Shown: piece after piece, positions 46,043 to 46,120 of the stretch
Position numbering within the stretch: position 1 is the stretch's first letter
Layout of the letters: each line of letters begins with the position of its first letter
NCBI GenBank assembly: GCA_025361185.1
Contig: JANYAR010000175.1
Span: 1-64,000 of the forward strand
Source: Alphaproteobacteria bacterium
GTDB taxonomy: Bacteria; Pseudomonadota; Alphaproteobacteria; Micropepsales; Micropepsaceae
Direction of reading: 5' to 3'
DNA length: 64,000 bases
Notes under the pieces: model-generated
Databases searched by the model: none
What the model was told of the DNA's origin: nothing
What the model saw: the letters and a program-made list of their open reading frames with translations, nothing else
Position numbers and translations under genes: made by a program

Positions 46043-46120
46043 GAATCCAGGGACTCAAATCATAACACTTTGATTCCCCAAGACTCTTGACCGCGGACTC
46101 GCGGCGACTCAGTGTGAATC
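46043..46120 (+). promoter_or_regulatory. Array of seven GANTC sites upstream of ccrM
   Basis: GANTC, the CcrM target, occurs at 46043, 46052, 46072, 46082, 46096, 46106 and 46116. Gaps are 9, 20, 10, 14, 10 and 10 bases, so most lie on one face of the helix. TTGACC at 46087 may be a -35 box. The array probably lets methylation state control ccrM expression. Confidence 0.7.

Follow-up and report, generated by a model that had tools for sequence, protein, structure and literature searches.

The seven GANTC sites located in 78 bp upstream of ccrM in the window (the whole 64,000-nucleotide stretch of DNA analysed here) are best read as part of a methylation-responsive control of ccrM, since the array exceeds chance expectation, is conserved, and lies on a promoter. 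Judged from sequence comparisons, an autoregulatory ccrM promoter that responds to methylation is very likely, and the whole explanation, in which the activity of this promoter would depend on the methylation set by CcrM with GcrA as the most likely reader, is considered probable. The number of sites and the gaps between them (9, 20, 10, 14, 10, and 10) were as originally described; the sites start at -44, -35, -15, -5, +9, +19, and +29 relative to TTGAC (Table 1). The ccrM product contains a Pfam N6_N4_Mtase catalytic domain with DPPY and a C-terminal RAMA domain; its top NCBIfam family was CcrM, at 634 bits, below the equivalog cut-off of 830, which may be tuned to Caulobacter-like members. 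GANTC methylation is the predicted activity of this protein, and the depletion of the motif in the window is an indirect sign of it.

Table 1. Features of the ccrM leader and its surroundings in the window; offsets are counted from the first T of TTGAC (46087).
Feature	Sequence or product	Position	Strand	Remarks
GANTC site s1	GAATC	46043..46047		About -44 from TTGAC in 32/39 genus leaders
GANTC site s2	GACTC	46052..46056		At -32 to -36 in 39/39 genus leaders
GANTC site s3	GATTC	46072..46076		The -15 site of the class-wide core; 38/39 genus leaders
GANTC site s4	GACTC	46082..46086		Abuts the -35 hexamer; largely genus-specific
GANTC site s5	GACTC	46096..46100		Spacer site; at +8, +9, or +10 in 39/39 genus leaders
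GANTC site s6	GACTC	46106..46110		Exactly +19 in 39/39 genus leaders
GANTC site s7	GAATC	46116..46120		Near the inferred transcription start; +29 in 15/39 genus leaders
Inferred -35 hexamer	TTGACC	46087..46092	+	TTGAC in 39/39 genus leaders (anchor) and in 81/95 class leaders vs about 14 in shuffles
Inferred -10 hexamer	CAGTGT	46110..46115	+	17 bp from the -35; genus consensus CACTGT; poor match to TATAAT
DnaA-box-like sequence	TTATCAACA	46125..46133	-	One mismatch to TTWTNCACA; inside the predicted hairpin
ccrM	GANTC adenine methyltransferase, 358 aa	46148..47224	+	ATG at 46148
rnhB	RNase HII	43495..44151	+	1.9 kb from the array here; directly upstream or overlapping in most relatives
rnhB 3'-end leftover	HNIWYGDESRDSNHNTLIPQDS*	46022..46090	+	Carries s1 to s4; detached from rnhB; matches the tails of relatives

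The density of the array stands out against a background in which the motif is depleted, with 107 GANTC sites in the 64-kb window vs 233 expected from dinucleotide shuffles. With 107 sites scattered uniformly, no trial out of 20,000 packed seven into a span below 126 bp, and the observed array spans 73 bp from first to last start. Likewise, no more than five GANTC appeared when the local sequence (118 bp) was shuffled 20,000 times, a procedure that preserves base composition only (as do the shuffles used below for class positions, DnaA boxes, and core counts). Pattern searches across the genome returned 22 GANTC triples with gaps of up to 20 bp vs two for a reversed control pattern; five of the 22 belong to the ccrM array, the longest close-spaced GANTC chain in the genome. 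A similar density elsewhere had been named as evidence against the array; the density, counted plainly for the 64-kb window and by pattern searches for the genome, was instead low elsewhere and the array lay far above chance. The runner-up cluster, on contig C41 of the same genome (G000; 71281-71371; locus L245:1467-1557), comprises six sites in 91 bp and eight in 170 bp, is intergenic upstream of a minus-strand gene, and may represent another methylation-controlled promoter. The product of that gene presumably resembles a YbjN-type protein.

The hexamers listed in Table 1 were read from conserved columns and would together constitute a sigma70-like promoter with a weak -10. An A at +24 and a T at +28, in the putative -10 region, are invariant in the 39 genus leaders, and the last base of s6 is the first base of the proposed -10 hexamer. 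The resulting skeleton therefore has one GANTC in the spacer, a -10 starting in another, and two close pairs upstream, and a GANTC thus holds a fixed place within the -35/-10 region, as is characteristic of GcrA-type methylation-responsive sigma70 promoters. The core geometry TTGAC-N14-GANTCANNNT occurs a single time in the genome, at ccrM; a search of the genome for a wider set of promoters sharing it revealed no such regulon, the geometry being almost restricted to ccrM. The claim that most sites lie on one helix face was largely borne out (R = 0.74 at 10.5 bp/turn), although the phasing is modest and mainly within pairs; with the number of sites and both ends kept constant, p is about 0.014, uncorrected for the choice of period, and the mean R in the genus is 0.645. 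The 14-bp gap in the array is where the -35 hexamer is located.

Comparisons with 39 distinct leaders of the genus, whose ccrM is 68-100% identical, showed that the array is conserved in close relatives, contrary to the lack of conservation that would have counted against it. The sites from s2 to s6 are hardly ever absent and the usual total is six to seven, counts that are not independent because the leaders share kinship; s4 is present in 39/39, but the alignment anchor demands it. The distance between s3 and s5 is 24 bp in 31/38 leaders, equal to that between s4 and s6, and parsimony requires four or more joint shifts; this coupling is suggestive, and part of it is explained by clade inheritance. 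Before the -15 site (46063-46076 in the window), a TAA and, a few bases further on, TTGATTC are conserved both in the genus and in Rhodobacterales.

Part of this arrangement extends far beyond the genus. Across 95 leaders of the class, mostly one per family, GANTC sites peak at about -15, +8 to +10, and +19 from TTGAC, and the three-site core is present with all three sites in 30/95 leaders and with two in 24/95, so that 54/95 have at least two vs 0.01 leaders in composition-preserving shuffles. The mean class density of 3.0 GANTC per 150 bp compares with 0.22 in ccrM coding sequence and 0.29 further upstream, which serve as the independent background. The +19 site occurs in 37 class leaders and the site flush with the -35 (s4) in six; the -15 peak is also seen in Rhodobacterales, and in a separate, partly named set, mostly of Rhodobacterales, all three core sites were present in 48/72 leaders. 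Given the class-wide core, the window carries an enlarged version of an old element, in which the flush s4 and the upstream pair are mostly additions of this genus; other families possess different upstream extra sites of their own. In one leader, L217, an in-frame, coding-like repeat, not a promoter, accounts for seven GANTC spaced 15 bp apart, which are an artefact in the class counts. The original prediction of a methylation switch, possibly graded or cooperative, was mostly borne out as to methylation-responsive control, which is supported by density, conservation, and promoter position, but was too narrow, given that the three-site core is class-wide. GcrA control of ccrM has been predicted before; the core geometry, its depth, and its independence from GcrA appear to be new to the literature.

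In the mechanism that we propose, passage of the replication fork would leave the sites hemimethylated until CcrM is made, and m6A on the spacer and -10 sites would recruit or stabilise RNA polymerase at the weak -10. In this organism, the effect of m6A would most likely be exerted through GcrA, by way of its binding to sigma domain 2 and its preference for methylated GANTC. The outer sites could tune the burst of expression, or end it once fully methylated. A period of hemimethylation combined with m6A-dependent polymerase activity would tie ccrM expression both to replication and to the output of CcrM itself. As to the direction of the effect, we lean slightly towards the methylated promoter being more active than the unmethylated one.

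The choice of GcrA follows what is established for Caulobacter, where GcrA prefers methylated GANTC, its binding increasing with methylation, and mutation of the sites cripples target promoters (PMC3667746). GcrA binds sigma2 and accelerates open-complex formation at methylated promoters (PMC7403470), and Caulobacter start sites with a GANTC between -35 and -10 turn on at 40-60 min, whereas those with GANTC outside are lowest at that time (PMC4287350). In PMC7987155, ccrM is predicted to be a core GcrA target that was lost in Caulobacterales. GcrA is encoded in the genome studied here (Pfam GcrA, 163 bits with a cut-off of 26.9; NCBIfam equivalog, 174 vs 280 bits) and was found in 183/289 class genomes searched. 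We therefore regard GcrA as a fairly good candidate for the main reader in this organism.

However, the distribution of the element does not follow that of GcrA. The core is kept in 14/20 ccrM-bearing genomes without detectable GcrA vs 49/75 with it, and the element showed no association with GcrA across genomes; this similar share indicates that GcrA cannot wholly account for the conservation of the core. The 14 genomes span 13 families, several are at least 98% complete and one is a single contig, and two additional searches at loose thresholds found no credible GcrA in them (examples are G101, G118, G188, and G169, at loci L193, L221, L199, and L202, respectively). A diverged GcrA that escaped detection, or incomplete assemblies for some of these genomes, are possible explanations. 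The reader that keeps the element could instead be CcrM, acting by autorepression through blocking of RNA polymerase, or RNA polymerase sensing m6A, or another m6A reader. CcrM is the sole GANTC-specific protein certain to be present wherever the element occurs, although we know of no case in which CcrM acts as a repressor. With GcrA present here and in most class genomes searched, and linked by experiments to methylated GANTC promoters of Caulobacter (PMC3667746), such a replacement of GcrA seems rather unlikely, albeit the strongest of the alternatives. A more speculative version, which we consider doubtful, is that the ccrM core may be an ancient GcrA-independent self-reading switch in which CcrM occupancy or m6A sets RNA polymerase, GcrA having become a co-reader in some lineages, and that the sites added by the genus would turn it into a multi-site re-methylation counter.

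Whichever protein reads it, the part played by methylation would be lost if the sites were an ordinary transcription factor motif, a possibility that we find improbable. Constraint does extend beyond GANTC, with s3 being nearly always TTGATTC, s4 always GACTC, and s6 nearly always CGA(A/C)TCA; however, the extra constraint on s4 and s6 is expected from contact with the hexamers, since s4 touches the -35 and s6 the -10. At s5, on the other hand, the middle base is unconstrained and the position varies by up to 2 bp, yet GA..TC is never lost. Mapped on the ccrM protein tree, s5 underwent at least ten changes of its free base and at least seven of its offset with no site loss. Its N position is C22/A6/G8/T3 in the genus; in the class, the counts are G11/A13/T11/C16, which is uniform (chi-square p = 0.73). 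Turnover of base and position without loss suggests that what is conserved is the methylation target, not a fixed sequence.

The position of rnhB raises the question of coding constraint, as in most relatives the gene terminates within the array or immediately ahead of it. Its stop codon lies inside the array in many of them, and the overlapping 3' end encodes D/E-S repeats (GAN TCN) in tails such as HNILYGDESGDSIHNTLIPQDS, which might by themselves maintain GANTC. Nevertheless, the sites persist where rnhB is detached or ends earlier (the window, L002, L022, L031, L032, L037, and L142), spacings of 8 to 12 and 18 to 21 disrupt the reading frame, s5 to s7 lie past the rnhB stop in nearly all relatives, and the tail sequence varies freely. 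As s1 to s4 were not lost in lineages with a detached rnhB, this explanation was rejected as very improbable. In the window, the short copy of the rnhB tail beside ccrM gives the impression that an insertion severed rnhB, or that rnhB was partially duplicated. The 1.9-kb segment between the two genes (44152-46021) includes a minus-strand ORF of 207 aa (44466-45089) that begins like a signal peptide and matched no Pfam family. Finally, chance or the base composition of an intergenic stretch is scarcely credible as the origin of the array, even though the motif shows a general enrichment in alphaproteobacterial intergenic regions (PMC3973325), since the local shuffles never gave seven sites, the positions are fixed across the class, no longer chain exists in the genome, and conservation refutes it.

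A hairpin before the ribosome site had been put forward as a second layer of control. A stem can be drawn, but in the window the region folds like shuffled sequence (z = 0.06), and in the genus it is weakly better than shuffles (mean z = -0.66), with no consensus structure found. A putative DnaA-box-like site is the more plausible reading of these bases: with up to one mismatch, such a site is present in 25/39 genus leaders, mostly at the same place and five times perfectly, vs 0.9 in shuffles preserving base composition. The sequence is conserved in the genus only and was not enriched in the class set. A CtrA box (TTAA-N7-TTAA) was found in 0/39 genus leaders as an exact match and in 1/39 with one mismatch, and predicted DnaA motifs before ccrM have been described mainly where CtrA sites are lacking (PMC2877005). 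Additional control by DnaA at this candidate site can be proposed tentatively, on odds that we place somewhat against it.

Most leaders examined here lack a CtrA box, and a conserved promoter composed of target sites of the enzyme that it expresses would offer, in many families, a direct and mutable answer to how CcrM is confined to the right part of the cell cycle in bacteria other than Caulobacter. The persistence of the core without detectable GcrA further points to a possible unrecognised reading of m6A at bacterial promoters. The ccrM leader of Caulobacter likewise has GANTC sites with a presumed methylation feedback, worded as 'most probably' (PMC3973325). However, Caulobacterales leaders have two to four sites, compared with usually six to seven in the genus of the window, and Caulobacter leaders lack the three-site core and have their sites elsewhere, whereas this genus has sites inside the -35/-10 spacer. 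Furthermore, Caulobacter ccrM is transcribed through CtrA (PMC3667746), unlike the genus studied here with its missing CtrA box. A likeness is also found with the GcrA-dependent methylated sigma70 promoters of Caulobacter (mipZ, ftsZ, podJ, and ctrA P1), in which GANTC lies between or near the -35 and -10 and GcrA is encoded, as here. These described promoters have one or two sites, while the one proposed here has two inside the promoter and four or five flanking it, and its target, unlike theirs, is the methylase's own gene. PMC7987155 likewise places ccrM among the core GcrA targets outside Caulobacterales, based on motif scores from one species per order, including Rhizomicrobium palustre; promoter geometry, site phasing, site turnover, and GcrA-less genomes are not covered in the available part of that source. 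The proposed control also resembles synthetic CcrM memory circuits, in which a promoter of CcrM is controlled by its own methylation (PMC5458116). Those circuits were engineered in E. coli with zinc-finger repressors, whereas the promoter in the window could represent a natural counterpart to synthetic methylation memory.
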